Source: Clostridia bacterium
Lineage (GTDB): Bacteria > Bacillota > Clostridia > UBA1381
Length of the DNA: 36,078 nucleotides
Reading direction: 5' to 3'
NCBI GenBank assembly: GCA_017404065.1
Contig: JAFRDB010000049.1
Span: 1-36,078 of the forward strand
This document shows, piece by piece, positions 2,248-27,752 of this stretch. Each line of letters starts with the position of its first letter. Position 1 is the first letter of the stretch. The notes below the pieces were generated by a model. It made no database searches. It saw only the letters and a program-made list of their open reading frames with translations, and was not told where the DNA came from. A program made the translations under genes and the position numbers.

Positions 2248-2248
2248 T

Positions 2249-3454: not shown

Positions 3455-3479
3455 CAACTGCATGGTCATGTGTTAGAAT
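3451..3479 (+). promoter_or_regulatory. Sigma-A promoter of the pheST T-box operon
   Basis: A perfect TTGACA (3451-3456) and TAGAAT (3474-3479) are 17 bases apart with a TGT extension before the -10 box. The -35 box overlaps the hydF stop codon. Transcription should start near 3486, just upstream of T-box stem I. Confidence 0.85.
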
Positions 3480-3485
3480 AACACT

Positions 3486-3755: not shown

Positions 3756-3788
3756 AGTTTGGAAAAAAATCTCTGCGCATCTCGCACC

Positions 3789-3896: not shown

Positions 3897-3975
3897 AATA
3901 CGACCTGCTTTGAGCTTTTCCCCCAAACTGTTTTGTGGAAGGATTTAATGGTCATAAATTTGAAAGGAGTATAGA

Positions 3976-4995: not shown

Positions 4996-5011
4996 GAAGG
5001 GAGTTGATATT

Positions 5012-7393: not shown

Positions 7394-8121
7394 TGCAGTA
7401 CGGCAGATTTGCATATATCTATGATCGCCTCATGCATGGGGATATAGACTATGATAAATGGTGCGACTATATAGAGAATATGCTTTACGTTCACGATTGT
7501 GACGCGCAGACTGTTTGTGAGCTTGCCTGCGGTACAGGCAATATGACCGCTCGGCTTATAAAGCGCGGCTACGATGTGACAGGTGTTGACGTCAGCTCTG
7601 ATATGCTCGCGGCCGCGGCGGATAAGCTTGGTAATACCGAGCTTGTGTGTATTGATATGACACGGTTCGTGCCGCAAAAAAAATATGACGCGTTCCTGTG
7701 CATGATAGACGGGATAAATTATGTTACGGTTCCTGCCGCGCTTTTACGCATGTTTAAGAACATAAAGGCGGCGCTCACAGATGGCGGTATGTTCATGTTC
7801 GACATCAGCTCTGAATATAAGCTGCGTGATGTCATCGGAAATAACACATTTATACATTCTGAATATGATGTGTTCTACGCGTGGCAGAACGAATACTATG
7901 AAAGGTATAATATAAGCGATATGCTGCTTAACTTCTTTGTTCTCGATAAAAACGGTGAGTATTCGCGGTTCGAGGAGCGGCATACCCAGCGCGGCTGGAC
8001 CGAGAAGCAGATAAGAATATTGCTTAAAAGAGCGGGCTTTACGGAGATATGCGCTTATGATGAACTGAGCTTTGAGCCGCCTGAAGAGGATAGTGAGAGA
8101 ATAGTTTTTGTTTGCAGATAA
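7393..8121 (+). CDS. Class I SAM-dependent methyltransferase, substrate unknown
   Basis: The 242-residue product has a standard Rossmann SAM-binding fold. Motif I is VCELACGTGNMT (about 38-49), the acidic end of strand 2 is VTGVDVSSDML, and motif IV is near FDAFLCMIDGINY. The frame continues with a small beta-rich insert common in this small-molecule type. The family is often annotated only as a class I SAM methyltransferase, and no substrate can be read from the sequence. Its ATG overlaps the pheT stop by one base and folE follows after 12 bases, so it lies inside the T-box operon and should respond to phenylalanine starvation. It could modify a tRNA, a protein or a small metabolite; I see nothing to decide. 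Confidence 0.85.
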   Translation: MQYGRFAYIYDRLMHGDIDYDKWCDYIENMLYVHDCDAQTVCELACGTGNMTARLIKRGYDVTGVDVSSDMLAAAADKLGNTELVCIDMTRFVPQKKYDAFLCMIDGINYVTVPAALLRMFKNIKAALTDGGMFMFDISSEYKLRDVIGNNTFIHSEYDVFYAWQNEYYERYNISDMLLNFFVLDKNGEYSRFEERHTQRGWTEKQIRILLKRAGFTEICAYDELSFEPPEEDSERIVFVCR

Positions 8122-9437: not shown

Positions 9438-11963
9438 GTGAAGAAATTCAATACTGCCGATATTCCCAGAACGGAAAGAATAGGGAGGCTTTTACATCAC
9501 ACCTTTGAGAAAATGCCTGAGATAGAGGCGGATCGCGCTGTGCTCCTGACTGAAAGCTATAAAAAGACGGAGAACGAGCCGATGGTAAAACGCCGCGCGT
9601 TGGCGTTTGCTCATATTTTAGAGAATATCCCGATAGTTATACGACCGGACGAGCTTATTGTAGGCTCATCAACCAAGGCTCCGAGAAGCTGCCAGGTATA
9701 TCCGGAGTTCTCGTTTGAGTGGCTTGAAAGTGAATTTGACACAGTTGCCACGCGTGAGGCAGACCCGTTTTATATCTCTGATGAAACAAAGGCGACGCTT
9801 CATGAGGTATTCAAGTATTGGAAGGGCAAAACGACATCGGAGCTCGCAACGGCTTACATGGCTCCTGAGGCAATCACATCGGTCGAGCATAATATGTTTA
9901 CACCCGGCAACTATTTTTATAATGGTGTCGGACACTTTACCTGCAAGTACTGGGATGTAATAAATCTCGGACTTGAGGGTATCAAGAAGCAGGTTTGGGA
10001 TGAGCTGATGTCAATACGCCCATACGATGCGGACTATGCAACAAAGCATGAGCTTTTGGAATCAATGATAATTTCCTGTGACGCTGTGATAAATTATGCG
10101 CGCCGTTATTCTGTTCTTGCTATGGATATGGCAAAGGAGTGCCAGGATCCGGTAAGGAAGAAGGAGCTTTTGCAAATAGCAAAGAACTGCGCGAGGGTAC
10201 CGGAGCATCCGGCTGAGGATTTCTATGAGGCATGTCAGGCGTTCTGGTTCATACAGCAGCTGCTTCAGATTGAATCGAGCGGACACTCGATCTCACCCGG
10301 ACGTTTCGATCAGTATATGTACCCACTCTATGAGAAAGGGATATATAACGGAACTCTTACACGTGAGTTTGCGCAGGAGCTTCTTGATTGTATCTGGATA
10401 AAGTTCAATGATCTCAACAAGTGCCGTGATGCGGCATCTGCGGAGGGATTTGCGGGCTACAGCCTGTTCCAGAACCTTATATGCGGCGGTCAGACAAGAG
10501 AGGGAAGGGACGCGACAAACGATCTTTCATTCCTTTGTATCCAAGCGAGTATGCACACGCTGCTGCCGGCGCCGTCATTTACGGTAAGAGTTTGGAACGG
10601 CACACCGAACGAGTTCATGCTAAAGTGCGCTGAGCTTACAAGAACAGGTATAGGTCTGCCGGCATATTATAACGATGAGATAATCATTCAGTCGCTTATG
10701 TCCCGTGGTGTAACGCTTGAGGATGCCCGTGACTATAACATAATCGGCTGTGTAGAGCCGCAGGTCGGCGGCAAGACACACGGCTGGCATGACGCGGCAT
10801 TTTTCAACATGTGCCGTCCGCTTGAGCTTGTGTTCTCAAACGGCTATGATAAGGGTGTAATGGTCGGAATTGAGACGGGTGATCTCTCAGAGTTCACTAC
10901 GTTTGAAAAATTCTTTGACGCGTATAAGCGTCAGAGCAATTTCCAGGTAGCAATGCTCGTTAATGCCAATAACTCTATTGATGTTGCTCACGCGGAGCGT
11001 TGTCCGCTTCCGTTTGCGGCAGCTCTTGTTGACGACTGCATAAAGACAGGCAAGACTATGGAGCAGGGCGGAGCGCATTATAACTTCACAGGTCCGCAGG
11101 GCTTTGGTATAGCAAATATGACAGACGCGCTGCTTGCTATAAAGGAGCTTGTATATGAGAAGAAGAAGTATACTCTTGAGGAGTTCAAGGAGGCAATGGC
11201 GCTTAACTACGGCAAGGGGCTAACTCCCAAGGCTGCAAAGGCTTCGACCAATGCGGTGGTAAGCAGTCTTATCGCTGAGGGTAAAAAGGTAGATGAGAAC
11301 GTCATTGCGGGTATATTCAAGATGTTCCTTGACGGTGTCGCAACGGACGAGCAGAAGGCAAAGTTTGATAAAATGCGCGAGGATATAGACGCGGTGCCTA
11401 AGTACGGAAATGATATAGAAGAGGTTGATCTGTTCGCGCGTGAGGTGGCGTATGTGTACACCAAGGAGCTGAACAAGTATAAAAATCCGCGCGGAGGCAT
11501 ATTCCAGGCCGGTTTGTATCCGGTATCGGCAAATGTACCGCTCGGTGAGCAGACGGGCGCAACGCCGGACGGAAGGCTTGCAAACACTCCTATTGCCGAT
11601 GGTGTTGGTCCGCGAGGCGGTTATGACATATACGGTCCGACGGCTGCGGCTAACTCTGTCGCAAAGCTTGACCACGGTATAGCATCGAACGGAACGCTTT
11701 ATAACCAGAAGTTCCATCCGAGCGCGCTTGCGGGGGTTGAGGGCTTGCAGAAGTTTGTAATGTACATCAGAGGCTTCTTTGATCAGAAGGGAATGCACAT
11801 GCAGTTTAACGTAGTTGACCGTGATACTCTTCTGGACGCGCAAAAGCATCCGGAGAAGTATAAGACGCTTGTTGTACGCGTTGCGGGCTACAGCGCACTG
11901 TTTACGACACTGTCGAAGTCCTTACAGGATGATATCATAGCTCGTACTGAACAGGTCTTTTAA
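9438..11963 (+). CDS. Glycyl-radical enzyme, diol-dehydratase-like
   Basis: This is an 841-residue member of the PFL2/glycerol-dehydratase branch of oxygen-sensitive glycyl-radical enzymes. The radical glycine is in RVAGYS (Gly817) and the active-site cysteine in GCVEPQ (Cys438, Glu440). Against the known B12-independent glycerol dehydratase, the other substrate contacts also appear kept: His166 (GVGH), Ser284 (GHS) and Asp452 (GWHD). This favours dehydration of a 1,2-diol or similar substrate and argues against formate-lyase or hydroxyproline dehydratase. About 45 residues (near 597-650) are extra compared with typical 787-residue glycerol dehydratases. GTG start with TGGAGG 7 bases upstream. 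The activase follows after 11 bases. No alcohol dehydrogenase or microcompartment genes are nearby, so the substrate stays open; isethionate-lyase-like or other C-X cleaving activity cannot be excluded. Confidence 0.85.
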   Translation: MKKFNTADIPRTERIGRLLHHTFEKMPEIEADRAVLLTESYKKTENEPMVKRRALAFAHILENIPIVIRPDELIVGSSTKAPRSCQVYPEFSFEWLESEFDTVATREADPFYISDETKATLHEVFKYWKGKTTSELATAYMAPEAITSVEHNMFTPGNYFYNGVGHFTCKYWDVINLGLEGIKKQVWDELMSIRPYDADYATKHELLESMIISCDAVINYARRYSVLAMDMAKECQDPVRKKELLQIAKNCARVPEHPAEDFYEACQAFWFIQQLLQIESSGHSISPGRFDQYMYPLYEKGIYNGTLTREFAQELLDCIWIKFNDLNKCRDAASAEGFAGYSLFQNLICGGQTREGRDATNDLSFLCIQASMHTLLPAPSFTVRVWNGTPNEFMLKCAELTRTGIGLPAYYNDEIIIQSLMSRGVTLEDARDYNIIGCVEPQVGGKTHGWHDAAFFNMCRPLELVFSNGYDKGVMVGIETGDLSEFTTFEKFFDAYKRQSNFQVAMLVNANNSIDVAHAERCPLPFAAALVDDCIKTGKTMEQGGAHYNFTGPQGFGIANMTDALLAIKELVYEKKKYTLEEFKEAMALNYGKGLTPKAAKASTNAVVSSLIAEGKKVDENVIAGIFKMFLDGVATDEQKAKFDKMREDIDAVPKYGNDIEEVDLFAREVAYVYTKELNKYKNPRGGIFQAGLYPVSANVPLGEQTGATPDGRLANTPIADGVGPRGGYDIYGPTAAANSVAKLDHGIASNGTLYNQKFHPSALAGVEGLQKFVMYIRGFFDQKGMHMQFNVVDRDTLLDAQKHPEKYKTLVVRVAGYSALFTTLSKSLQDDIIARTEQVF

Positions 11964-11974
11964 CGGAGAACATA

Positions 11975-12763
11975 ATGGAAAACTACTTAAAGGCGCGAGG
12001 TCGTATATTCGACATTCAGCGATACTCGATACATGACGGCCCCGGCATAAGAACAATAGTTTTTTTAAAGGGTTGTCCGCTCCGTTGCCGCTGGTGCTGC
12101 AATCCGGAGGGTCAGGAGTGGGAGCCTGTGGAGATGCTTGTTGAAGGCAAACCAAAGCTTTACGGTGAGGATATAACCGTAGAGGAGCTTATGCCGCGGC
12201 TTATTACAGATGAATTTTACTATATGCGCAGCGGCGGCGGAATAACGCTTTCCGGCGGTGAGTGTCTTGCTCAACCGGATTTCGCACCGCATCTTTTGCA
12301 TGCGTGTAAGGATATGGGTTATACTACGGCGATAGAAACGACCGGGTATCAGAAGTGGGAGATCATTGAAAGATATCTGCCGTATCTTGATTATGTGCTT
12401 ATGGATATAAAGCATATAGACAGCGCGAAGCATAAGGCATTTACAGGCGTAAATAATGAGCTTATTCACGAGAATGCGAGAAAATTTGCCACATCAGGTG
12501 TTGATCTTACTATACGTGTGCCGGTAATACCGACGTTTAACAATACACCTGAGGAGATACGCGCTATAGCTGAATTTGCGGCTTCGCTGCCGGGTGTGGA
12601 AAAGCTGCATCTATTGCCGTATCATCGTCTGGGACAGGGTAAGTATGACGGACTTGGGCGTGAATATACGATGCGTGATATAGAGCCCATGACGCGTGAT
12701 TATATGCAGTCTCTGCTTGCGGAGGCAAAAAAAAGCGGTATATATTGCCAAATTGGAGGCTAA
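11975..12763 (+). CDS. Glycyl-radical enzyme activase (radical SAM)
   Basis: This 262-residue protein should install the glycyl radical on the enzyme encoded just upstream. The radical-SAM cluster motif CX3CX2C is at Cys34, Cys38 and Cys41 (GCPLRCRWC). The SAM-binding GGE motif is in SGGGITLSGGECL, and DIKHID is a further family segment. Most activases for dehydratase-type enzymes carry about 60 extra residues with two more [4Fe-4S] clusters after the first motif. Here the segment from 44 to 70 is short and has no cysteine, as in pyruvate formate-lyase activase (about 246 residues). CGGAGAA stands 5 bases before the ATG. Two membrane-protein genes follow directly. Confidence 0.92.
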   Translation: MENYLKARGRIFDIQRYSIHDGPGIRTIVFLKGCPLRCRWCCNPEGQEWEPVEMLVEGKPKLYGEDITVEELMPRLITDEFYYMRSGGGITLSGGECLAQPDFAPHLLHACKDMGYTTAIETTGYQKWEIIERYLPYLDYVLMDIKHIDSAKHKAFTGVNNELIHENARKFATSGVDLTIRVPVIPTFNNTPEEIRAIAEFAASLPGVEKLHLLPYHRLGQGKYDGLGREYTMRDIEPMTRDYMQSLLAEAKKSGIYCQIGG

Positions 12764-12764
12764 A

Positions 12765-13445
12765 ATGAAGGGTATTTTATTTGCGTCCGCCAGAAGATTT
12801 GTCGAAATGCTGCTGTGGATGGTCATATTATCGGCACTGATATTCGGCTTATATAAAGCTGAAGTCATAATGCCAACGACGACAGGATGCTTTGTAAGTC
12901 TGATGATCGGAGCGATTTTGTTCTGGCTCCAGAACTTCAGATGGCTATGCCGGTGTCGGGTGAGCGTTCCGAGCAGGAGGATATATCTGATAGTTAATTA
13001 TGTGCCATACGCTGTTATCATGATAATATCTTATATTATCCTTGCGTTCTATGACAGTCAAGTATATACATGGTTATTTTCAATAACAAAATTCTTGAAA
13101 TATGGAGAGGTATTGTCATTTGATACCGGAACGGCCACAACGGTTATTTCTTCTTTCGTATTCCATCTGATCACACTGCTTTTAATATGGTTTGCGCCGT
13201 ATAGTATTGAGTCGGCTTTAAAAGAGAATAATAGCTGGAGAGATGTTTTTTACACGGCAACGGATGCCGTTAAGGTAGTTACGGCTCCGGAGATCGGGTT
13301 ATCCGACGAGGTCAGACAATCGGTGCTGATAAATTTGTTTGCGGGAGCAACAGTTAATGATGTTAACCGAATGCTGGGCTTGCCGATCGTAGAAGAAGAT
13401 GAAGAAGATGAAGAGGAGGATGGATATGCCGGAGTCGGTATCTGA
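12765..13445 (+). CDS. Unknown four-helix membrane protein A
   Basis: I do not recognise this 226-residue protein. Four hydrophobic helices are visible at about 12-30, 40-58, 73-96 and 124-145. A soluble C-terminal tail follows and ends in a strongly acidic run of Glu and Asp (about 212-220). The ATG at 12765 is chosen because GGAGG lies 5 bases upstream, at the end of the activase gene; the longer open frame would overlap the activase. It resembles the next gene in layout: YTWLF before the fourth helix, a helix with an aligned His, and an N/ISW segment after it. The acidic tail is encoded by the overlap with the next gene. Being in the glycyl-radical operon suggests a link to substrate or product movement, but nothing shows it. 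Confidence 0.75.
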   Translation: MKGILFASARRFVEMLLWMVILSALIFGLYKAEVIMPTTTGCFVSLMIGAILFWLQNFRWLCRCRVSVPSRRIYLIVNYVPYAVIMIISYIILAFYDSQVYTWLFSITKFLKYGEVLSFDTGTATTVISSFVFHLITLLLIWFAPYSIESALKENNSWRDVFYTATDAVKVVTAPEIGLSDEVRQSVLINLFAGATVNDVNRMLGLPIVEEDEEDEEEDGYAGVGI

Positions 13446-14052
13446 AAACAAGACGTTGCGCTGGATAGGGATACTGCTTACAGAGATGGTATTAGCAGAA
13501 GTGCTGCTGTCATATATTGCCATTGTTGTTCTCAGAATGGGCCGCTTTGCTAATACATACGCTCCAACGTTTATAGCGCTGCTGTCCGGACTTTTTGTAT
13601 ATTTTGTTGTTACTATCATTTTCCTTAACCGATGCTGTTTTGATCTGCTGGATAAAAAGCTGTATTACAAAACTGTCGGTATAGCATACGGAATCTTTAT
13701 CGCTATAAGCGTCATTTTCAAATTTGTATGCTACATGGATACATATACATGGCTGTTCGGACTGTATAAGATATTTAATTATACTGTTTTGCCGGTGGGT
13801 AGTCTTGGTTCGGTATTTATAGTACACGCATTTATGATAATCGCCATACTGATCGTACCGCAGCATTTGTCTTATCTGCTCACGGAGGAAAGCGAAATCT
13901 CGTGGACTGATAAAGAATATAGAATAGTCGATATAGCGGAGGCTCTGAAGAAAAGCTCAGCAACAGAAGCAGAGTGCCGCAAGGTGCTTGTCGGTTTTTC
14001 CGATGAGCTTACATACGATGATATAACAGAGCTGCTCAGTAATGATAATTAA
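13426..14052 (+). CDS. Unknown four-helix membrane protein B (diverged paralogue of A)
   Basis: This 208-residue protein has four hydrophobic helices (about 12-36, 47-66, 83-103 and 124-145) and a soluble tail. It shares with the preceding protein the YTWLF segment (107-111 against 101-105), the spacing to the fourth helix (VFIVHAF against FVFHLIT) and an SW(T/R)D segment after it. I infer an old tandem duplication. The ATG at 13426 has GAGGAGG 6 bases upstream; another ATG at 13420 is possible. The gene overlaps the previous one by 20 bases in another frame, so translation is likely coupled. A terminator follows 21 bases after the stop. Function unknown. Confidence 0.75.
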   Translation: MPESVSENKTLRWIGILLTEMVLAEVLLSYIAIVVLRMGRFANTYAPTFIALLSGLFVYFVVTIIFLNRCCFDLLDKKLYYKTVGIAYGIFIAISVIFKFVCYMDTYTWLFGLYKIFNYTVLPVGSLGSVFIVHAFMIIAILIVPQHLSYLLTEESEISWTDKEYRIVDIAEALKKSSATEAECRKVLVGFSDELTYDDITELLSNDN

Positions 14053-14421: not shown

Positions 14422-15510
14422 TCATATACCTACAGTAAATAGGTTTGTTTCATCTTCATACGTGTATTCGATATACTGTGATCTGCCTTCTACTATCATG
14501 CGTGAGATATCGTCAAGCTGGTCAAGCGGATCAAGCTTAGCTCCGCCATAGCTGAGGCAAAGCTCGGTAGTGCCGCGGCGTTCGGCGTGCTCTATAGTCA
14601 TGGTAATGTCAAGCCTTGAGACCGGACTGCGCTTCAGCCCCTGTACCACAAGCTCCTCAAATATGCTTTGCAAGTTAATAACGTTTTTCCTGTCAAGACG
14701 GAGTCTTGAGCCAAAGGTCGCTATGCGGCTGTTGATACTGAGAAAGTCAAACGTAGCAGGACAGAGAGTAACGGTCATTACCTTCAGCTGATGAACAAAT
14801 CTGCGTGTTAATTCTCTCTCAGGAGCTTCAAATATCTTTTTTGGCGTGCCTTTTTCATATATGCCGCCCTCACACATGAAAAATATACGGTTCGACACTT
14901 CTTTTGCAAGCTGTAGATCATGGGTGACGATTACCATTGTAAGTCCCTGCGCGGCAAGAGCGCGTATAACTGACTGCACCTCGCTTACCATTGCCGGATC
15001 GAGAGCAGAGGTCGGTTCATCGAAAAGTATTATCTCCGGATCCATAGAAACGGCGCGGGCGATTTCTATTCTTTGCTGTTGTCCGCCGGATAACTCGTCC
15101 GGATAGCTCATTGCTTTTTCAGTGAGTCCTACCATATCCAAAAGCTCCATCCCGCGGTCGTATGCCTCCTGCGGGCTTTTGCCGAGAAGGTCAACCGGCC
15201 CGCACATAAGGTTCTCTATTGCGGTCATGTGTGAGAAAAGATAAAATTCCTGGAACACCATTCCGATCCTGCGCCGGATAGACGGCAGATCGGTATAAGG
15301 ATCACATATATTCTGTCCGTCTATTATTATTTTTCCGCTATCCGGCTCCTCAAGTCTGTTCAGACAGCGGATGAAGGTGCTTTTGCCTGCACCGGACGGA
15401 CCTATAACGGCGATGACGTCACCCTTATTTATATCTACACTTATTTTCTTGATTGGAGTAATATCACCATAGCTTTTTTTCAGATCACGAATTTTGATCA
15501 TTGCTTCCAT
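14422..15510 (-). CDS. Polar amino-acid ABC transporter ATPase with extra C-terminal domain
   Basis: The first 245 residues are a typical GlnQ-type ATPase that powers uptake of a polar amino acid. Visible are Walker A GPSGAGKST (37-45), the Q-loop in MVFQEFYLF, the signature LSGGQQQRIEIARA, Walker B IILFDEPTSALD and the H-loop VTHD. Relatives are about 240-250 residues; this one has 362. The last 115 residues are a separate domain. They include FEELVVQGL, a run of alternating strands (ITMTIEH, TELCLSYGG) and DPLDQLDDIS, which recall the N-box and fold of GHKL/RsbW-type ATPases. AAAGGAG lies about 9 bases before the ATG. The start overlaps the end of the permease gene by 26 bases. Confidence 0.9.
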   Translation of the reverse strand: MEAMIKIRDLKKSYGDITPIKKISVDINKGDVIAVIGPSGAGKSTFIRCLNRLEEPDSGKIIIDGQNICDPYTDLPSIRRRIGMVFQEFYLFSHMTAIENLMCGPVDLLGKSPQEAYDRGMELLDMVGLTEKAMSYPDELSGGQQQRIEIARAVSMDPEIILFDEPTSALDPAMVSEVQSVIRALAAQGLTMVIVTHDLQLAKEVSNRIFFMCEGGIYEKGTPKKIFEAPERELTRRFVHQLKVMTVTLCPATFDFLSINSRIATFGSRLRLDRKNVINLQSIFEELVVQGLKRSPVSRLDITMTIEHAERRGTTELCLSYGGAKLDPLDQLDDISRMIVEGRSQYIEYTYEDETNLFTVGI

Positions 15511-17020
15511 TTGTGACCACTCCTTTCAGTTTATTTGTGCGTCGTTTAGGATCAAATTTTATCTCTATCCTGCTAAGCAGCAGTGTAAGCAGCCATGATA
15601 AAATGAAATAAATAGCGGCTGTGAGCAGCAATGGAAAGAATGCCTCGTATGTACGGCTCCGTATAACGTCCGTTGCCTTTGTCAGATCGCCGATAGCTAT
15701 GTATCCTACGATCGAGGTGGTTTTAACAAGAGATACAAAGGCGCTCTTGAGTATGGGCATGAAATGCTGTGCCGCCTGTGGCATCAGTATTTTGAAAAGA
15801 GTCTGTGAAGGTGTATAACCCATAGCCAAAGCAGCCTCGGTCTGACCGGGATGGACAGCGTTTATACTTGTGTTCATAACGGATGCGACCGTTGTTCCGA
15901 AGTTTATCGAGAATGCCGCTGCTGCCACTCCAACGGGTGGGAGAGGTGTGCGTACAAATACGATATAGAATAGTATCATTAGGAGTATGATGATCGGAAC
16001 ACCCTGAATCACCTTTATGAATGCCGTTGTGATATAGCGCAGCAGCTTATACCTGCATCTTAGCAGCATAAGCAAAAGGAAACCGAACCCTGCGCCGAAA
16101 ACAGCGGAAAGACATGATATCAAAAGCGTTATACATATACCTGACACGATTAGCTTCCAGCGATCTTCTGTGGCAAAGTTATTTTTAAGCCCCTGCGTTA
16201 TGTTAGCGATGCCAATCGTAGTCTTTGTTGCGTTTTCATCCTTTACTACTACAGATATATTTCCATGAAAATCCGGCGCTGAAAATTTTAGTTTATCCCC
16301 ACGCTCATCAGTTACGGTTATAACGTCAGCTGCGATATCTGTCTGACCGGTCTGAAATGACTGTAAAATGGATGAGAAGGGCATAGTGGAGTATTTGAAA
16401 TTATATCCGTGAGCCTTGCAGAACCTATTTAAAATATCTGCTTCATAGCCGGCAAGCTTTTCGTCTTTTTCATAAATAAACGGAGGTGTCTCGGCGTTTG
16501 ACGCAAAGCTAAGAGTTCTTGCGTCCTTGAACTCTTCAAACTCCAATTCTTTTTTTGATTCATCATAGCCAAACCATATATCGGCTATCTCGTTAAGAGT
16601 ACCGTTATTTTTTATCTGCAAGAGATATTCGTTGAATTCAGAGCACAAAGCATCGCCGTCCGGAGTATCGGCAAAAGCGAAAACATACTCTGTTTCGATC
16701 GATGTATTGCATAGAAATCGGACTCCGTCACTGTCGCGGCACATAGCGCGCGCTGTCGGCTCATCACACATGATCGCGTCAATGTTGCCGCTTTTGAGAG
16801 CAGCTAACAAATCAGAGTAGGAATTATAATACCGTTTTTGCGGATCTTCAATAACCTCGCTTATATGGCTTTCAAAGGTCTTGCCGGTAATAAATCCGAT
16901 ACGTTTACCTTTAAGATCATCAAGCGATTTTATTTCACTTGGCGCAGCCTGCGTTATAATAAAAACAATAAGAAAGACGGCAAATGATAATACCATTATC
17001 CTTTGTAAAAGCTTTTTCAT
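15485..17020 (-). CDS. Fused binding-protein/permease of a polar amino-acid ABC system
   Basis: This 511-residue protein combines solute binding and membrane transport. After a signal-anchor (about 8-25) comes a domain that looks like the second half of a family 3 binding protein (SLDDLKGKRIGF at 32, DAIMCDEPTA at 81, ending IADIWFG near 151). It is followed by the first half of such a protein (ETPPFIYEKDEKLAGYEADI near 177-196, TDIAADVITVTDER near 227-240, LKFSAPD). The order is therefore reversed compared with a normal binding protein. The permease part (about 288-490) has several helices and the EAA-type motif EAALAMGYTPSQTLFKILMPQ. Key ligand contacts such as the Arg of TDERGDK are present. 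Specificity cannot be told. GAGG lies 6-7 bases before the ATG. Confidence 0.92.
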   Translation of the reverse strand: MKKLLQRIMVLSFAVFLIVFIITQAAPSEIKSLDDLKGKRIGFITGKTFESHISEVIEDPQKRYYNSYSDLLAALKSGNIDAIMCDEPTARAMCRDSDGVRFLCNTSIETEYVFAFADTPDGDALCSEFNEYLLQIKNNGTLNEIADIWFGYDESKKELEFEEFKDARTLSFASNAETPPFIYEKDEKLAGYEADILNRFCKAHGYNFKYSTMPFSSILQSFQTGQTDIAADVITVTDERGDKLKFSAPDFHGNISVVVKDENATKTTIGIANITQGLKNNFATEDRWKLIVSGICITLLISCLSAVFGAGFGFLLLMLLRCRYKLLRYITTAFIKVIQGVPIIILLMILFYIVFVRTPLPPVGVAAAAFSINFGTTVASVMNTSINAVHPGQTEAALAMGYTPSQTLFKILMPQAAQHFMPILKSAFVSLVKTTSIVGYIAIGDLTKATDVIRSRTYEAFFPLLLTAAIYFILSWLLTLLLSRIEIKFDPKRRTNKLKGVVTNGSNDQNS

Positions 17021-17153: not shown

Positions 17154-19079
17154 GTGGGATTTGCAGCATTCTTGATTCTATTCCCGTTTCTTGCGGCAGC
17201 AGTGCTCATTTTTACAAAGAATAATTCCGCAAGAAAAGCAGTTGTTTTCAGCAGCGGCATAATCATTATGGCGGCGGCGGTATTGTTTTCTGTGCGTGAG
17301 TTTCCGGGCAGCGGCAACGCCTACCTCGGTCAGTCACATCTGACGCACAGGATAGATAATATAATGCTTGCCGCGGAGCTTTTTCTGATGGCGCTCGTGG
17401 TAGTGCTCAGTGTAAAGCACAGGAAGTATTATGCGGGGCTTTTGTCGGTAATAGGCACGGCAGCGATGACATGGCTTGAGGTAAGCGGCAGAGCCGCTAC
17501 GGACGAGGCGCATATTTATTGTGACAAGCTCACGGTTATAATGTGCCTTATAATAGCCTTTATCGGTTCGCTTATTTGTATTTATGCGGTGGGGTATATG
17601 GTAGATTATCATAATCACCACACTGAGTATCGCGACAGGCGTACGTTCTTTTTCCCGATGCTGTTTGTGTTTCTCGGAGCTATGTTTGGTCTTGTGATGT
17701 CGGCAAATCTGAATTGGATATATTTCTTCTGGGAGGTAACGAGTATCTCGTCCTTCCTGCTTATCGGATACACACGCACAAAGAAGGCTATAGATAACTC
17801 CTTCCGCGCGTTGTGGATGAACCTTCTGGGCGGCTTAGGCTTTGCGGCAGCGATAATATATTCGGCAATTATGCTGGATGTTACAACGCTTTCGGGACTT
17901 GTTAACCACGGAACTCCGTCGCTTATCCTTATACCGGTGATCCTGCTTGCGTTTGCGGCTCTCACAAAATCGGCACAGCTGCCGTTTTCCAAATGGTTGC
18001 TCGGCGCGATGGTCGCGCCAACGCCGACCTCGGCGCTGCTTCACAGCGCTACCATGGTAAAGGCGGGAGTGTACCTGCTAATCCGTCTTGCTCCGGCGAT
18101 GCATGGCGAGCTTTCCGGAACCATGACCTCGCTTGTGGGAGGATTTACCTTCCTTATTGCAAGTATGCTTGCCATAACCGTCAGTGACGGTAAAAAGGTT
18201 CTTGCATACTCGACAATATCAAACCTCGGTCTCATAACCGCCTGCGCGGGTGTGGGAACAAAGGAAACTGTATGGGCGGCGGTATTACTTCTGATGTTCC
18301 ATGCAGTTTCAAAATCAATGATGTTCCAGGCTGTAGGCGCGATAGAAAACGCGACCGGCAGCAGAAATATAGAGGATATGCACGGACTGATCATGAGCGC
18401 GCCGTTTTTGGCTTTTGTCATGGTTATAGGTATTGCCGGAATGTTCCTGGCTCCGTTCGGTATGCTTATATCGAAATGGGCGGCGCTCAAGGCGTTTATA
18501 GATGCAGATAATATCGTGCTCGTTCTTTTCATCGCGTTCGGCAGCGCTACGACGATGCTGTACTGGACAAAGTGGCTGGCGAAGATACTTGTATGCAAGG
18601 CGCATTCGCATAAGGTATATCACAGGACCGCGGGCGGTGAGTGGCTGTCGCTTTTAAGCCATGCGTTTATGATGATAATGCTCTGTCTGCTTCTGCCGAC
18701 AATATCGATAGCGGTTGTTGAGCCGCTTCTTGCGCAGCTGTATAACGTAAAGAGCGTTTCGGTGCTTGCGCCTGAGGATCTGGTCATTATGGTGATCATG
18801 CTTGTCATGGTATTCGTTATCCCTGTGGTCGCAAGAGTGCTTACCAGCCGAATTAACACGACACCGAACCTTGAATACATGGGCGGTGTTAATCAGGGAG
18901 ACGACCGCCACTTTGAGGACTCGTTCGGCAATCCGAAAAATATGTACCTCTCAGGCTGGTATCTGGAGGATTATTTCGGCGAGAAAAAGATATGGCTGCC
19001 AAGCGCGGCTATTTCTGTGGTAATGATAGTCGCGTTTATAGGACTTTCGGTAGGTACGCTTTCGGGAGGTGTTATCTGA
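17154..19079 (+). CDS. echA: Ech-type hydrogenase membrane subunit A (NuoL-like)
   Basis: EchA is the large antiporter-like subunit that couples electron flow to proton or sodium movement. The 641-residue product has about 15 hydrophobic helices and the core pattern of the complex I NuoL/M/N family. Conserved segments include the ANLNWIYFFWEVTSISSFLL region and the Lys-rich helix AALTKSAQLPFSKWL, followed by APTPTSALLHSATMV. It starts at GTG 17154, 8 bases after AGGAG; an out-of-frame ATG two bases earlier opens only a short frame. Length agrees with EchA of methanogens (about 640). Its stop overlaps the start of echB. A NuoL-like subunit of other membrane hydrogenases is possible by itself, but the gene order fixes it as Ech type. 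Confidence 0.92.
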   Translation: MGFAAFLILFPFLAAAVLIFTKNNSARKAVVFSSGIIIMAAAVLFSVREFPGSGNAYLGQSHLTHRIDNIMLAAELFLMALVVVLSVKHRKYYAGLLSVIGTAAMTWLEVSGRAATDEAHIYCDKLTVIMCLIIAFIGSLICIYAVGYMVDYHNHHTEYRDRRTFFFPMLFVFLGAMFGLVMSANLNWIYFFWEVTSISSFLLIGYTRTKKAIDNSFRALWMNLLGGLGFAAAIIYSAIMLDVTTLSGLVNHGTPSLILIPVILLAFAALTKSAQLPFSKWLLGAMVAPTPTSALLHSATMVKAGVYLLIRLAPAMHGELSGTMTSLVGGFTFLIASMLAITVSDGKKVLAYSTISNLGLITACAGVGTKETVWAAVLLLMFHAVSKSMMFQAVGAIENATGSRNIEDMHGLIMSAPFLAFVMVIGIAGMFLAPFGMLISKWAALKAFIDADNIVLVLFIAFGSATTMLYWTKWLAKILVCKAHSHKVYHRTAGGEWLSLLSHAFMMIMLCLLLPTISIAVVEPLLAQLYNVKSVSVLAPEDLVIMVIMLVMVFVIPVVARVLTSRINTTPNLEYMGGVNQGDDRHFEDSFGNPKNMYLSGWYLEDYFGEKKIWLPSAAISVVMIVAFIGLSVGTLSGGVI

Positions 19080-19963
19080 TGGTTGGCTCAATGATAGGTA
19101 TAGTGTTATATCTTGTTTTTGCGCCCTTTGTCGGCGGACTGATCTCGGGTATCGACCGCAAGCTTACGGCGCGTATGCAGGGAAGAATAGGCCCTCCGCT
19201 GCTTCAGCCGTTCTATGATGTGCGCAAGCTTATAAACAAAGAGATACTTCTTATAAACAATATGCAGTTCCTGTTTGCGTGGTGCTTTGTGATCTTTATC
19301 GCGTTCACCGGCGCGCTGTTCTATGGCGGAGTAAATATACTTCTCGTTGTGTTTGTGCTTACGACCGCGGCAATGTTCCTTGTGCTGGAGGCGACAACAA
19401 CAAATTCGCCGTTCTCCGTAATGGGCGCTAACCGTGAGATGATGCAAATGCTCTCGTATGAGCCTATGGTACTGCTTACAGCTGTCGGCTTTTATGTGGC
19501 AACGGGCATTGGTCCGCATGACGGCACGTTTAATATATCTGAGATAATAACCCATTCCGATATACCGAATGTGGTATATCTGCCGGGCGTGTTCATCGGC
19601 TATTTATACATCCTCACGATAAAGCTCAGAAAATCGCCGTTTGATATCTCCATGTCGCATCACGCGCATCAGGAGATGGTAAAGGGTATTACAACCGAGC
19701 TGACCGGCGGTATGATGGCGCTTATCGAGATCTCGCACTGGTACGAGAACGTGTTCTTGTTGGGGCTTGTTGCGCTGTTCATACTCTGTTCAAAGTGGTG
19801 GAGCATACCGCTTGCGCTTATCGTATGCGCCGCAGCGTTTTTCCTGGAGGTGCTTATCGATAATACAAGCGCGCGTGTGAAGTGGGATCTGATGCTTAAA
19901 TCTGCATGGATAATAACGCTTGTATTCGGTGCGATAAATATATTTATCCTACAGATGTTTTAA
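19079..19963 (+). CDS. echB: Ech-type hydrogenase membrane subunit B (NuoH-like)
   Basis: EchB links the soluble hydrogenase arm to the membrane pump. The 294-residue product has about 8 hydrophobic helices and NuoH/HyfC motifs: the loop TARMQGRIGPPLLQPFYDV with its conserved Arg and Gly-Pro, then ATTTNSPFSVMGANREM and TELTGGMMALIEISHW. It begins at the ATG at 19079, which overlaps the echA stop by one base, with GGGAGG 9 bases upstream; the longer open frame overlaps echA and is not used. echC follows after a short gap. Confidence 0.93.
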   Translation: MVGSMIGIVLYLVFAPFVGGLISGIDRKLTARMQGRIGPPLLQPFYDVRKLINKEILLINNMQFLFAWCFVIFIAFTGALFYGGVNILLVVFVLTTAAMFLVLEATTTNSPFSVMGANREMMQMLSYEPMVLLTAVGFYVATGIGPHDGTFNISEIITHSDIPNVVYLPGVFIGYLYILTIKLRKSPFDISMSHHAHQEMVKGITTELTGGMMALIEISHWYENVFLLGLVALFILCSKWWSIPLALIVCAAAFFLEVLIDNTSARVKWDLMLKSAWIITLVFGAINIFILQMF

Positions 19964-19978
19964 TTGGAGGGTACAGAT

Positions 19979-20422
19979 ATGGCAACAAAGGTAGCAAAAT
20001 CGCCGTGGCTGCTGCATTATGACGGTTCAAGCTGTAACGGCTGCGATATTGAGGTGCTCGCGTGCCTCACTCCGATATATGATGTGGAGAGGTTCGGAAT
20101 AATAAACACAGGTAATCCAAAGCATGCTGATATACTGCTTATAACCGGCGGTATAAACACACAGAATAAGGCGGTGGTAGAGCAGCTTTATTCGCAGATG
20201 CCGGAGCCGAAGGTGGTATGCGCGGTAGGTATATGCGCCTGCAACGGCGGCGTGTTCAAGGAATGCTATAATATTATCGGCGGAGTGGACAAGGTGATAC
20301 CGGTGGATGTATATGTTCCCGGCTGCGCGGCTCGTCCGAACGCTATAATAGACGGTGTTGTAAAGGCGTTGGGTGTGCTTGAGGAAAAACGAAAAAATAT
20401 GAAGGGAGGCGCGGCAGAATGA
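19979..20422 (+). CDS. echC: Ech-type hydrogenase small subunit C (NuoB-like)
   Basis: EchC carries the proximal [4Fe-4S] cluster that takes electrons to or from the Ni-Fe site. The 147-residue protein is a short NuoB-type small subunit. Its four cysteine ligands are visible in CNGCD, AVGICACNGG and VPGCAARPNA. It lacks the long extra cluster domain and twin-arginine signal of uptake hydrogenases, as expected for a cytoplasmic group 4 enzyme. The ATG at 19979 has TTGGAGG 8 bases upstream. Its end overlaps the start of echD by 4 bases (ATGA). Confidence 0.94.
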   Translation: MATKVAKSPWLLHYDGSSCNGCDIEVLACLTPIYDVERFGIINTGNPKHADILLITGGINTQNKAVVEQLYSQMPEPKVVCAVGICACNGGVFKECYNIIGGVDKVIPVDVYVPGCAARPNAIIDGVVKALGVLEEKRKNMKGGAAE

Positions 20423-20778
20423 GAGAGGATTATGTTCTTGTAGACCTTGCTCCGGATATGCTCACATTAAAGGCTGTAAAGGCGAAGAATAATAATGCGC
20501 GTCTTGTGCAGATATGTGCGGTCAACACACCGGACGGGTATGATCTTCTGTATTCGTTCGCTGTGGATTATCATTTCGTAAACTATCGCATACCGGTAAA
20601 GAAGGGTGATCAGATAGTGAGTATATCCGATATATATCCGCCCGCTTCGCTTTATGAGAATGAGATGAGGGAGCTGTTTGGCGTAGATATACAGTTTATT
20701 AAGCTAAACTATAATGACAGGCTCTATACTATAGATGAAACAACACCGTTCAGACCCGAAGCAAAGGAGGAAAAGTAA
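20419..20778 (+). CDS. echD: Ech-type hydrogenase subunit D (NuoC-like)
   Basis: EchD is a small structural subunit, homologous to NuoC (30-kDa complex I subunit), that joins the large and small subunits. The 119-residue product shows the family end segment SISDIYPPASLYENEMRELF, followed by the short GV(D/K)-type tail. It has no metal-binding motif. It overlaps echC by 4 bases and stops one base before the ATG of echE. Identity rests partly on gene order since the family is poorly conserved. Confidence 0.9.
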   Translation: MREDYVLVDLAPDMLTLKAVKAKNNNARLVQICAVNTPDGYDLLYSFAVDYHFVNYRIPVKKGDQIVSISDIYPPASLYENEMRELFGVDIQFIKLNYNDRLYTIDETTPFRPEAKEEK

Positions 20779-20779
20779 G

Positions 20780-21859
20780 ATGGCAAACAGATCGGTAGTG
20801 CCGTTCGGACCGCAGCATCCTGTGCTGCCGGAGCCGATACATCTTGACCTTGTGCTCGAGGATGAAAAGATAGTAGAGGCGATCCCCAAGATCGGCTATG
20901 TACACCGCGGACTGGAAAAGCTCGTGGAAAAACGCGATTTCAATGATTTTGTATATATAGCGGAGCGTACCTGCGGAATATGCTCGTTCATGCACGGCAT
21001 GGGTTATGTTGAGGCAATGGAGCGTATATTTGATGCGGAAATACCGCCGCGCGCGAAGTATCTGCGTACAATATGGTGTGAGATGTCAAGGATACATTCT
21101 CATCTGCTGTGGCTTGGTCTGCTTGCGGACGGGTTTGGATTTGAGGCGCTGTTCTATCAGTGCTGGCGTATGCGCGAGAAGGTCCTCGATATGTTCGAGG
21201 AGGCGACCGGCGGCAGAGTTATATTCTCAGTCAACAAAATCGGCGGCGTGTTAAAGGACATGCCCAAAGAGATGCTTGCAAAGTTTGTTCACAACTTCAA
21301 TGAGATCGAGAAGGAGCTTAAAGACCTTACAGAGGTATTCTTAACAGACTACTCGGTCGAATCGCGTCTCAGGGGTGTCGGTATTCTCACGCGCGATGAC
21401 GCGATAAGACTTGGCGCTGCCGGACCGATGATGCGCGCGAGCGGCATAAGTATAGATACAAGGTCTATTGGCTATGCGGCATACGAGGATATAGATTTTG
21501 ATATAGTCACAAGCAACGATTGTGACAGCTACGCCCGATGCGAGGTTCGCATAAAGGAGATATTCCAGTCGATAGAGATAATCCGCCAGGCTGTGGAGAA
21601 GATCCCGGGCGGCGAGATATCAATAGATATAAAAGGTAATCCGAAGGGCGAGGCGTTCACAAGGGTCGAGCAGCCGCGCGGCGAGGCTATATACTATTGC
21701 CGCGCAAACGGAACAAAGTTCTTAGAGAGGTTCCGTATCAGGACACCAACGTTTGCAAATCTTACGCCCATGCTGTATACGTTAAAGGGCGCGGAGCTTG
21801 CCGATGTGCCGCTTCTCATTCTTACGATCGATCCATGCATCAGCTGCACAGAGAGATAA
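20780..21859 (+). CDS. echE: Ech-type [NiFe]-hydrogenase large subunit E
   Basis: EchE holds the Ni-Fe active site that makes or oxidises H2. The 359-residue product has both Ni-ligand motifs: RTCGICSFMH near residue 57 and DPCISCTER at the very C-terminus. All four cysteines are present, so this is a hydrogenase and not a NuoD-type remnant. The protein ends after CTER, without the C-terminal extension that a maturation protease removes in most [NiFe]-hydrogenases; this is known for Ech of methanogens. The ATG at 20780 is preceded by AAAGGAGG about 8 bases upstream. The longer open frame overlaps echD. Confidence 0.95.
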   Translation: MANRSVVPFGPQHPVLPEPIHLDLVLEDEKIVEAIPKIGYVHRGLEKLVEKRDFNDFVYIAERTCGICSFMHGMGYVEAMERIFDAEIPPRAKYLRTIWCEMSRIHSHLLWLGLLADGFGFEALFYQCWRMREKVLDMFEEATGGRVIFSVNKIGGVLKDMPKEMLAKFVHNFNEIEKELKDLTEVFLTDYSVESRLRGVGILTRDDAIRLGAAGPMMRASGISIDTRSIGYAAYEDIDFDIVTSNDCDSYARCEVRIKEIFQSIEIIRQAVEKIPGGEISIDIKGNPKGEAFTRVEQPRGEAIYYCRANGTKFLERFRIRTPTFANLTPMLYTLKGAELADVPLLILTIDPCISCTER

Positions 21860-21873
21860 GGGGGTAGAGCGTT

Positions 21874-22311
21874 ATGGCATCAATAATGAAATTTACAAGC
21901 TTTGCTTTAAAGAACCTGTTCTCAAAGCCCGTAACAAAGAATTATCCGGCGGAGGAGCGGGAGTATCCTGCCCGCGCGCGCGGCAGTTTGCAATGCAAAA
22001 TAGAAGATTGTATATTCTGCGGCATGTGCCAGCGCAAATGCCCGTCGGGCGCGATAACGGTTGATCGCAAGGCGCGACAGTGGTCGATTGACCGCATGGG
22101 CTGTGTTCAATGCGAGAATTGTGTAAATCATTGCCCAAAGAGCTGTCTGAAAATGGATGTGCATTATTCGGAGCCGGACTACAATAAGGTGGTTACGACA
22201 CTTGAAGGTCCGCCGGTTGCGCCGAAGCCGGAGCTTACACCGGAGAAGATAGCGGAGCTGAAGGCGGCAGCGGCGGCGAAAAAGGCAGCGGCGGCAAAAG
22301 CGAAGGAATGA
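21874..22311 (+). CDS. echF: Ech-type hydrogenase ferredoxin-like subunit F
   Basis: EchF carries two [4Fe-4S] clusters and is thought to exchange electrons with soluble ferredoxin. The 145-residue product has two full motifs: CIFCGMCQRKCP and CVQCENCVNHCPK. An N-terminal segment (1-38) fits the NuoI-type arm, and the C-terminus is a run rich in Ala and Lys (about 125-145) that is probably flexible. AGGGGG stands about 10 bases before the ATG. The stop overlaps the hypF start by 4 bases, so hydrogenase and maturation genes are translationally coupled. Confidence 0.94.
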   Translation: MASIMKFTSFALKNLFSKPVTKNYPAEEREYPARARGSLQCKIEDCIFCGMCQRKCPSGAITVDRKARQWSIDRMGCVQCENCVNHCPKSCLKMDVHYSEPDYNKVVTTLEGPPVAPKPELTPEKIAELKAAAAAKKAAAAKAKE

Positions 22312-24458
22312 AAAAATACAGGGTAACCGGATTGGTACAGGGGATAGGCTTCCGCCCGTATGTGAAGCGGCTGGCGGACAGTCTTGGTATATCCGGAACA
22401 GTCAAAAACTGCGGAGGCTTTGTGGAAATAACGGCAAGTGGGGAACCGCTTGCCGAATTTTGCATGGGACTTGCTAAGCTTCCTTACGCTCTTATAGACA
22501 GAATTACAGAGGAAGATGTGATCGATAATGAAACAGACGGATTTCATATAATCGGAAGCGCTGACGGTGAGGGCGAGCCTCCTGTTATTCCGGCGGATAT
22601 TGCTGTGTGTGACAGCTGTATCAATGAGTTTAAGGATAAGAACAACCGTCGCTACAGACACCCGTTCATAAGCTGTACCGCTTGCGGGCCAAGGTATTCG
22701 ATAATTGAAGCGTTGCCATACGATCGCGAAAACACAGTAATGAAGGATTTTGAAATGTGCGACAGCTGCGCCGCGGAATATACCGATATAGGCAATATCC
22801 GCTGTCACGCTCAAACGGTGGCATGTAACGGCTGCGGGCCGCGGCTTAAATATACGCTTGGCGGTGATCCGCTCGATGCGGCTGTCAGGACAATAAAAAA
22901 CGGCGGCATCGTGGCGGTGAAAAACGTTGGCGGATACCACCTTGTATGTGATGCTGAAAATGAAACTGCGGCAGAGCGTCTGCGCGCAATAAAGGGACGT
23001 GAGACAAAGCCGTTCGCGGTAATGTTCGCAGCAGCCCGTAATGTTCGGGAGTACGCGGAGGTATCGGAGACGGAGGAAAGAATACTGCTCTCATCCGCAA
23101 GACCTATAGTGCTGCTTAAAAAGAAACGCGACTTTGCAAGATCCGTTTGCGGGTTGAGCGAATATATCGGCGCGTTCCTGCCGTCAGATCCGATCCAGTA
23201 TTACCTTGCGCACAAGTGCGGCGCAATAGTTATGACGAGCGCGAATATATCAGGCGAGCCGATAATAACCGATAATAAAAGCATAGATGAGCTGCGTCGC
23301 GAACGCGGCGGATTTGAAATACTCAGCCATGACCGGCGCATACTCACGCCGCTTGATGATTCTGTCTGCCGCGTCATTCGCGGCAGGATGCAGATGATAC
23401 GCCGCGCGAGGGGCTATGTGCCGCTGCCGATAGAGATAGACACGGCGCGGAATACGGCAGTGCTTGCGGCGGGCGGAGACCTCAAAGCCTCGTTTTGCCT
23501 TGCGTCCGAAGGAAGAGCATATATGAGCCAGTATTTTGGCGATCTGGAGGATGCGGAGACTTTGCGGCTCTGGAAGGAGAATATAGCGCGGCTAAGGGAC
23601 TTGCTTGGTATAAGTCCTGAGATTTATGTTTCGGATATGCACCCTCTGTATTTCAGTTCAGGGTATATCGGGGGAGAGCGGCTGCAGCACCATTTTGCTC
23701 ATTTTGCATCTGTTATGGCGGAGCATAGGCTCAGCGATCCCGCACTCGGATTTGTTTTTGACGGCACCGGGTATGGCGAGGACGGATGTGTATGGGGCGG
23801 TGAGGTGATATCATACGATACCGGCTTTAGAAGGGTTGGCGGGCTTTTGTACACAGAGCTTCCGGGCGGTGACGAGTCAGCGAAAAATTCCACGCTGATC
23901 AGCGATTGCTTTCTTATTGCTGCCGGACTTGAACCGCGCGGTGCGGACGGTGATCTTATCAAGTCAGTCCTTGACAATCACATAAATACCGTGCGTTCAT
24001 CAAGTATGGGGCGGCTGTTTGATGCAATATCGGCGCTTTTGGGTATTTGCGGATATAACACCTATGAAGGTGAGAGTGCGATAATGCTTGAGGCTGCCGC
24101 GGCGCGCGCAAAAAAGCCATATCCGCTGACGATTTGCATGAGAGACGGCAGATGGGATACCGCCGCTCTTATCCGTGATATTGCGGCGGCGTATGATCGC
24201 GGCGCGGAAGGAGACGAGCTTGCGCTCGGTTTTCACTCTGCGATAGCGGAGGCTGTGGCGGCTGCGGCGCGCCGATACGGAAAAAAGACGATCATATTAT
24301 CCGGCGGAGTGTTTATGAACCGGATACTCACCGAGCTGTGCTTCGATAAGCTTGCCGGTTTTGATGTATATATAAACGAACAGGTGCCGACCAATGACGG
24401 AGGGATCGCGTTGGGGCAAGCTTGGTATGCCTTAAATCCATGCGATGCGGCGGAATAA
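22308..24458 (+). CDS. hypF: Carbamoyltransferase HypF
   Basis: HypF makes the CN ligand precursor for [NiFe]-hydrogenase by transferring a carbamoyl group to HypE. The 716-residue product shows an N-terminal acylphosphatase domain (VQGIGFRPYV at 10-19), two zinc-finger-like CX2C repeats (CDSC/CTAC and CDSC/CNGC, about 102-180), a YrdC-like domain (about 190-370, TKPFAVMF and TSANISGEPI) and a C-terminal Kae1-like domain with HHFAHFASVMAEH, DGTGYGEDG and ILSGGVFMN. All domains are intact; length is slightly below the usual 750. The gene starts within the end of echF. Confidence 0.95.
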   Translation: MKKYRVTGLVQGIGFRPYVKRLADSLGISGTVKNCGGFVEITASGEPLAEFCMGLAKLPYALIDRITEEDVIDNETDGFHIIGSADGEGEPPVIPADIAVCDSCINEFKDKNNRRYRHPFISCTACGPRYSIIEALPYDRENTVMKDFEMCDSCAAEYTDIGNIRCHAQTVACNGCGPRLKYTLGGDPLDAAVRTIKNGGIVAVKNVGGYHLVCDAENETAAERLRAIKGRETKPFAVMFAAARNVREYAEVSETEERILLSSARPIVLLKKKRDFARSVCGLSEYIGAFLPSDPIQYYLAHKCGAIVMTSANISGEPIITDNKSIDELRRERGGFEILSHDRRILTPLDDSVCRVIRGRMQMIRRARGYVPLPIEIDTARNTAVLAAGGDLKASFCLASEGRAYMSQYFGDLEDAETLRLWKENIARLRDLLGISPEIYVSDMHPLYFSSGYIGGERLQHHFAHFASVMAEHRLSDPALGFVFDGTGYGEDGCVWGGEVISYDTGFRRVGGLLYTELPGGDESAKNSTLISDCFLIAAGLEPRGADGDLIKSVLDNHINTVRSSSMGRLFDAISALLGICGYNTYEGESAIMLEAAAARAKKPYPLTICMRDGRWDTAALIRDIAAAYDRGAEGDELALGFHSAIAEAVAAAARRYGKKTIILSGGVFMNRILTELCFDKLAGFDVYINEQVPTNDGGIALGQAWYALNPCDAAE

Positions 24459-24499
24459 TTATGATGTGTTTATTTGTTATATAAGGGAGTGGATATAAA

Positions 24500-24721
24500 A
24501 TGTGTGTTGCGGCACCGGGACGAGTGATAGGAATAAAAAACAATATTGCGAGGATAGATTATAACGGCAACTGTGTTGACGCTAACGCCGGACTGGTTGA
24601 GGTGAAGGCGGGTGACTATGTGCTTGTCCACGCGGGGATGATAATACAGCGGCTCAATGAGAATGAGGCGCGTGAAATGACAGAGCTGTTCAAAACTCTG
24701 GAGGAGCTTGGCGATGCCTGA
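24500..24721 (+). CDS. hypC: Hydrogenase maturation chaperone HypC
   Basis: HypC binds HypD and the large subunit, carrying the Fe(CN)2CO unit. The 73-residue protein begins MCVAAPG, equivalent to the conserved MCLAIP, with the essential Cys2. It keeps the small beta-barrel pattern (VDANAGLVEVKAGDYVLVHAG) and ends in a helix. AAGGGAG lies 10 bases before the ATG. It overlaps hypD by 8 bases. Confidence 0.95.
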   Translation: MCVAAPGRVIGIKNNIARIDYNGNCVDANAGLVEVKAGDYVLVHAGMIIQRLNENEAREMTELFKTLEELGDA

Positions 24722-25748
24722 TTTAGACGGGATAAAACGGTATTTGAGAGAATATGACGGTGAGAGCAAAATCATAATGGAGGTTTGCGGCACGCATACC
24801 GCGTCTGTTTCCGAGAACGGGATAGCGGATATGCTTTCGCCGAAAATAAAGCTGATATCCGGCCCCGGCTGTCCGGTTTGCGTTACTGTCGCGGCATATA
24901 TAGACAGACTGATCGAGCTTGCGATGGAGGAGAACACAACGGTAATTTCCTTCGGAGATATGCTGCGCGTTACCGGATCCCGGCTGTCGCTGCGTGATGC
25001 CGCGGCGGTGGGCGGAAGCGTTAAGATAGTGTATTCTCCGTTTGAGGCGATCAGCCTTGCAAAGGCGTCACCGGAGCGAAGATTTGTGTTTGCGGCGGTT
25101 GGGTTTGAGACGACAACGCCGATATATGCGCTTATGTCGGAGCAGATAATAAATGAAGATATAAAGAATTTGCTGCTGCTGACAGCTCTCAAGACTATGC
25201 CTGCCGCGATACGCGCGGTTTCCGGCGCGAATATTACCGGATTTCTTGCGCCGGGTCATGTCGGTGTAATAACCGGACACAGGCTTTTTGAGGAGCTTGC
25301 AAGGGAGCTTGGCAAGCCGTTTGTTACGGCAGGCTTCAAGGGGGAGGAGCTGCTTGCCGCGATATACGCGCTTACAAAGCTAAAGAGCGGCGCGGCGCTT
25401 AACCTTTATCCCTCTGCGGTAACATACGAGGGCAATGTCAGGGCGAGGGAGATAACAAACAAGTATTTTGAGCCGTGTCGGGCGGCGTGGCGCGGACTGG
25501 GCATAATAGACGGTTCAGGCATGAAGCTGCGCGATGAATACAGTTTCCTTGACATCGGCAGCTCCGGACTTGTGAATGACAGCGTAAAGGATAAGGGCTG
25601 CCGTTGCGGCGATGTCATAACCGGAAGGATAAGTCCGCGCGGATGTCCGCTGTTCGGACGCGTGTGCACTCCGGATACGCCCTGCGGCGCGTGTATGGTC
25701 TCGACAGAGGGCAGCTGCTTCCATTATTATATAAACGGGAGAGTGTAG
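24714..25748 (+). CDS. hypD: Hydrogenase maturation Fe-S protein HypD
   Basis: HypD is the scaffold where Fe receives its CN and CO ligands, together with HypC. The 344-residue product has the conserved active-site segments EVCGTHT and GPGCPVCVT. The C-terminal cysteines of the [4Fe-4S] cluster are in CRCGDV, GCPLFGRVC and CGACMVSTEGSC. I take the ATG at 24714, with GAGGAG 7 bases upstream, over a TTG two codons earlier. Not to be confused with the hydroxyproline dehydratase that shares the gene name. Confidence 0.96.
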   Translation: MPDLDGIKRYLREYDGESKIIMEVCGTHTASVSENGIADMLSPKIKLISGPGCPVCVTVAAYIDRLIELAMEENTTVISFGDMLRVTGSRLSLRDAAAVGGSVKIVYSPFEAISLAKASPERRFVFAAVGFETTTPIYALMSEQIINEDIKNLLLLTALKTMPAAIRAVSGANITGFLAPGHVGVITGHRLFEELARELGKPFVTAGFKGEELLAAIYALTKLKSGAALNLYPSAVTYEGNVRAREITNKYFEPCRAAWRGLGIIDGSGMKLRDEYSFLDIGSSGLVNDSVKDKGCRCGDVITGRISPRGCPLFGRVCTPDTPCGACMVSTEGSCFHYYINGRV

Positions 25749-25757
25749 AAGAACGAT

Positions 25758-27731: not shown

Positions 27732-27752
27732 ATATACCACTCCTTTAGCACC

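Follow-up and report, generated by a model that had tools for sequence, protein, structure and literature searches.

The question raised by this locus is what the extra C-terminal domain of an ABC importer ATPase is, and what it does there. The window, by which we mean the whole stretch of 36,078 nucleotides that was analysed, carries on the minus strand, at 14422–15510, the open reading frame of a 362-residue GlnQ-type ABC ATPase with a C-terminal pseudo-RsbW (GHKL) domain. An alternative start, the ATG at 15499–15501, may be the true one, since relatives begin with MIK or MIE. The nucleotide-binding domain (NBD), residues 1–239 (14794–15510, minus strand), is supported by its GlnQ match, its motifs and structure comparison. 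All its ABC motifs are intact, the Walker A GPSGAGKST, the signature LSGGQ, the Walker B with DEPTSALD and the VTH switch. Residues 4–240 match the NCBIfam GlnQ model (E 4e-83) with 278 bits, which falls below the equivalog cut-off of 379 bits, and the ATPase is by its sequence GlnQ-like, with no particular substrate assigned. The AlphaFold2 model of the whole protein (pLDDT 95.7, pTM 0.89) has its structural matches over the NBD among amino-acid importer ATPases, and the best Foldseek match is 4yms_A (rmsd 0.9 Å over 238 columns, 48% identity).

The start of the ATPase gene overlaps the end of the upstream gene (15485–17020, minus strand), which encodes a GlnP-like protein of 511 residues, with substrate-binding module(s) fused to the permease (SBP_bac_3 and BPD_transp_1), as in the GlnP of GlnPQ importers. 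Such an SBP-permease gene stands directly before the ATPase gene in most related loci (52 by clustering, position -1). The protein is best explained as the ATPase of an amino-acid importer of the GlnPQ type. The GlnPQ of Lactococcus lactis has tandem substrate-binding domains on the permease together with the GlnQ ATPase. In both systems a GlnQ-type NBD comes after an SBP-permease fusion (PMC8025302), but the GlnQ model stops at about residue 240, without such a C-terminal domain. Elsewhere in the window, two adjoining membrane-protein frames without family matches (12696–14052, plus strand) are alike in layout and share a YTWLF motif, and may be tandem paralogues. Judged from sequence, there are also a glycyl-radical enzyme of 841 residues adjoining its radical-SAM activating enzyme (9438–12763, plus strand), and a membrane-bound [NiFe] hydrogenase with group 4-like subunits and the maturation genes HypF, HypD, HypE and HypB (17154–27740).

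The tail, residues 240–362 (14425–14793, minus strand), was assigned by fold, profiles and alignment as a degenerate HATPase_c_2 domain. The original prediction spoke of 115 extra residues; the extension is real, but its length is about 122 residues. The landmarks that it named, FEEL (284–287), YGG (321–323) and DPLDQLDDIS, all lie where it had placed them. Among the matches listed for the ATPase in Pfam and NCBIfam, no family extends beyond residue 275 or so, into the last 100 residues approximately, and the tail of the window alone gave nothing usable against Pfam, NCBIfam and PDB sequences. Matches of the tail to Fic, catenin and HPr (E 0.05–1) were dismissed, and a plasmid search gave no match.

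At least 92 other loci have the same tail behind an NBD of this kind, and two glutamates in the tail are invariant, so it is not a chance extension of the reading frame. The homologous tails, at least 93 of them and mostly from gut and rumen anaerobes, are 21–35% identical to that of the window in the aligned set. When 95 genomes of the same order were searched with the tail only, it was present in nine, each time behind a GlnQ-like NBD, and in a sample across the phylum the ABC tail occurred in 9 of 398 genomes. When linker and tail were run against 85,000 species genomes, 80 loci were kept. Most are from Lachnospiraceae, Oscillospiraceae and other Clostridia of the rumen and gut, and some carry the labels Synergistales, Anaerolineaceae/Chloroflexi or Selenomonadaceae. 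Oribacterium sp. P6A1 and C9 (L087, L089), whose records have strain titles and are not MAGs, also have the family. The genome of the window has a paralogue of the tailed ATPase on another contig (G000:C148), and in several relatives the SBPs, permease, NBD and tail form a single protein of about 1150 residues. One further ABC-tail gene (locus L025, G109:C1 near 1986400) lies in two frames, the NBD at 725–1498 and the tail at 1441–1869, owing to a frameshift or an assembly error.

The AlphaFold2 model of the tail, built with 68 family sequences, is confident (pLDDT 92.3, pTM 0.84), and its elements follow in the order beta-alpha-alpha (N box)-beta-beta-short alpha-alpha-beta-beta. When this model was compared with the PDB by Foldseek, the best 20 matches were all SpoIIAB, UsfX or RsbW chains, with E-values down to 1e-6. 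VIA-align gave the highest score to UsfX (8ih8_C; Z 13.9, rmsd 2.6 Å, 120 residues), a chain taken from the complex with the STAS protein RsfB, followed by SpoIIAB (1tid_A) and RsbW (6m37_C), both Z 13.0, the RsbW domain of Rv1364c (12.7) and SiaB (12.3). These anti-sigma-factor and serine-kinase domains align with the tail over 100–120 residues at Z 12–14, as against Z 7.8 and below for histidine kinases. Neither ACT, CBS nor NIL folds were among the listed matches from Foldseek and VIA-align against the PDB. The predicted fold of the tail is thus of the GHKL/RsbW type, as had been proposed from the sequence alone, and FEEL does occupy the position of the N-box glutamate. With SpoIIAB, RsbW and UsfX the tail has in common the fold of the whole domain, the N-box helix with its Glu-Glu pair, the FDP after the D box and the C-terminal hairpin. 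It differs from them in being fused to an ABC ATPase and in having lost the Asn, Asp and G boxes and the ATP lid.

The kinship can also be followed in the sequences. The tail of the window is too divergent to match Pfam HATPase_c_2, but this family is by far the commonest Pfam match of the tails, with weak matches in 16 of 68 (best 9.8e-4); another set, of eight, gave a match at 1.4e-4. With a profile of the tails, two intact RsbW-like proteins are reached, one that stands alone at 5.7e-8 and one fused to a MATE transporter at 3.7e-7; these two match HATPase_c_2 at 2.7e-14 and 2.7e-19. Conversely, an HMM of RsbW from whose building the ABC tails had been left out recovers tails, at best with 1.5e-5. 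The hhalign comparison of the tail profile with an alignment made up mostly of SpoIIAB gave a weak result (P 0.003, probability 10%). In the domain tree SpoIIAB lies on a remote branch, and it was the closer intact relatives that gave clear E-values. Reciprocal profiles accordingly place the tails and RsbW in one family, and by computation the tail descends from the RsbW/SpoIIAB (HATPase_c_2, GHKL) family of serine kinases and anti-sigma factors. In the domain tree the ABC tails fall on one side of a branch with 100/99 support, together with two long-branched rows of SDF-fused domains, a grouping which we set aside as probable long-branch attraction. The tree is compatible with a single fusion of the domain to the ABC ATPase.

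What has become of the ATP site was counted in an alignment of 93 tails and intact relatives. The N-box equivalent, FEELVVQG (residues 284–291; 14638–14661, minus strand), keeps its pair of glutamates in all 93 tails, but the Mg-binding Asn remains in only 6 and is replaced by Gln in 73, the window included. The adenine-binding Asp of the D box, in the window YGGAKLDP (residues 321–328; 14527–14550, minus strand), is found in none, and Tyr stands in its place in 81, again including the window. The ATP lid and G box are deleted at LDQLDD (14509–14526, minus strand): six residues are left here, as in 86 of the 93 tails, compared with 19 in all seven intact stand-alone relatives. The GGLG box is absent from the tail, which has no Gly-Gly. 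Since the Asn, Asp and G boxes and the lid are lost, no ATP binding or kinase activity is to be expected, and we rejected an active GHKL ATPase or kinase. The family has lost the site uniformly and has kept the fold and the Glu pair, which has the look of a pseudokinase retained for another job. The original prediction had allowed that the domain might sense a nucleotide and had suggested examining whether the ATP-lid residues are kept in homologues; in 86 of the 93 tails they are not, and with the site so systematically destroyed nucleotide sensing is unlikely.

It is conceivable that the former nucleotide pocket has been reshaped, around the invariant Glu-Glu pair, a Tyr and a Gly, to bind a small molecule, such as the amino acid that is imported or some other metabolite, and that this would cause trans-inhibition as in MetN and ModC. 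Among 68 tails E56 and E57 (residues 285 and 286 of the protein) are invariant and D26, Y37, Y92, G94 and N127 nearly so, and E56, E57, Y92, G94 and N127 lie in the former N box, the former D box and the C-terminal hairpin. Trans-inhibition through C-terminal domains of different folds is already known (PMC10710835). However, the conserved residues may be structural, and the operons described below favour a protein partner, so that we regard a ligand pocket as improbable.

The gene neighbourhoods of the relatives point to such a partner, the second of the two roles, beside nucleotide sensing, that had originally been foreseen for the domain. In the most complete locus, L138, the genes follow one another on one strand: an SBP-permease gene (2140–4389), the NBD-pseudo-RsbW gene (4389–5477), a STAS gene (5505–5798), a gene for a SpoIIE-type phosphatase (5824–7659) and an RsbW gene ending at 8066. 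The STAS gene starts 28 bp after the ATPase frame, and Pfam confirms every part except the pseudo-RsbW domain itself. In L095 a protein of 1405 residues, SBP-permease-NBD-pseudo-RsbW, is followed by a STAS protein of 98 residues, and parts of the STAS/SpoIIE/RsbW module are present in L063, L060, L117, L131 and L017; in L060/L061 the frame of the STAS gene appears to be cut short. The neighbouring STAS and SpoIIE genes are all on the strand of the ATPase and nearly all downstream of it. Within 776 kb there are six independent loci with a STAS gene close to the ATPase gene, and eight with an RsbW-like protein or domain, where 0.5–1.6 would be expected (Poisson p 4e-8 to 5e-3) from densities that were taken from family searches, about 2 per Mb in the genome of the window and 0.6–0.9 per Mb in the other sampled genomes, and not from matched control loci. 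Three loci show an unusual STAS-kinase fusion, in which STAS is joined to an APH-type phosphotransferase (L215:2134–3309, L117:7294–8472 and L063:7648–9210), the last of them also to an intact RsbW.

STAS or SpoIIE/RsbW module genes are close by in only about 7 of 89 loci, and none adjoins the gene of the window or its paralogue on C148. Any STAS partner of these two would therefore have to act in trans; the genome of the window has six STAS domains. That most loci have no such gene nearby is what would be expected if the tail were a homodimerisation clamp only, paired pseudo-RsbW domains holding the two NBDs together in the manner of SpoIIAB, without any switching partner, and comparable to the C-terminal regions of MalK, MetN or MlaF. 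SpoIIAB and RsbW are dimers, which agrees with such a clamp. Dimerising C-terminal domains are found on MetN and ModC (PMC10710835). A clamp would nevertheless leave the same-strand STAS-SpoIIE-RsbW operons unexplained, as well as the related domains on MATE and SDF transporters, which have another topology and some of which have intact ATP motifs, and we consider it rather unlikely.

The reading that we prefer, and to which we give an even chance of being right, is that the pseudo-RsbW tail acts as a docking and regulatory pseudokinase domain by which a STAS protein would gate the amino-acid importer. An intact RsbW kinase and a SpoIIE-type phosphatase would set the phosphorylation of the STAS protein, which is RsbV/SpoIIAA-like. 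The STAS protein would dock on the pseudo-RsbW domain, where it would take the role that a sigma factor has as the bound partner, and the docking would alter the opening and closing of the two NBDs and in this way gate the uptake of amino acids. It is a further step, which we take more tentatively and hold to be somewhat short of an even prospect, that STAS protein, SpoIIE phosphatase and RsbW kinase form a partner-switching circuit with an ABC nutrient importer as its output, and not a sigma factor, by way of the pseudokinase RsbW fused to the NBD.

There is a precedent in the STAS protein MlaB, which controls the ABC ATPase MlaF (PMC7367683). E. coli MlaFB resembles the proposed system in that regulation of an ABC ATPase runs through a STAS protein and through an extension at the C-terminus of the ATPase (PMC7367683), but MlaB binds directly to the NBD, the tail of MlaF is short and has no GHKL domain, and no kinase/phosphatase switch is involved. 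Canonical partner switching has been reviewed and classically ends in gene regulation (PMC8256260). The flow could for that reason be the reverse, with the transporter as a sensor whose transport state captures or frees the STAS protein, which would then act on a sigma factor or some other output. The genes and the predicted contact would be the same. In L138, however, the genes of the module line up with those of the importer and include none for a sigma factor or another output, which makes this direction of flow very unlikely in our opinion.

Importers are not the only transporters with domains of this kind. In the genome of the window four MATE transporters (L053, L054, L056 and L058) have C-terminal RsbW-like domains and an SDF symporter (L046/L219:346–1932) has an N-terminal one; the ATP motifs of such MATE- and SDF-fused domains range from intact to degenerate. 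A MATE exporter with a C-terminal RsbW-like domain is followed in the same genome by a STAS gene and a gene for a SpoIIE phosphatase that has an RsbW-like domain of its own (L214:2462–6433, G000:C60), which makes up a partner-switching module that includes a transporter. At L218:1294–3449 (G000:C20) genes for a degenerate RsbW-like protein of 199 residues, a STAS protein and an MFS transporter lie on one strand; the first has an AEEL...AYGN stretch and no Pfam match, its likeness to RsbW being judged by eye. Together with the fused MATE and SDF domains, these two loci imply that transporters with RsbW-type domains near STAS and SpoIIE genes recur. If STAS docking does gate the importer, its circuit would belong to a wider group of transporters (ABC, MATE and SDF) with RsbW-type domains in anaerobes.

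To our knowledge, the C-terminal regulatory domains of importer ATPases have so far had ACT/NIL, OB-type (TOBE) or CBS folds, to which a degenerate anti-sigma-kinase domain would add a further kind. The pseudo-RsbW tail has the same place on a type I importer ATPase as the C2/NIL domain of MetN and the regulatory domain of ModC (PMC10710835), whereas these have different folds and bind the substrate directly. Transporters with fused regulatory domains are a recognised theme, and a review from 2023 mentions no GHKL domain (PMC10710835); our literature search of open-licence PMC papers found no earlier description of an ABC ATPase with one. The gene neighbourhoods of the relatives suggest that bacteria use the partner switch for nutrient uptake and not only for gene expression. 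This would tie partner switching, the best-studied bacterial protein switch, to the direct control of nutrient uptake, and since importer, STAS protein, phosphatase and kinase are all encoded at L138, the idea is testable with one operon.
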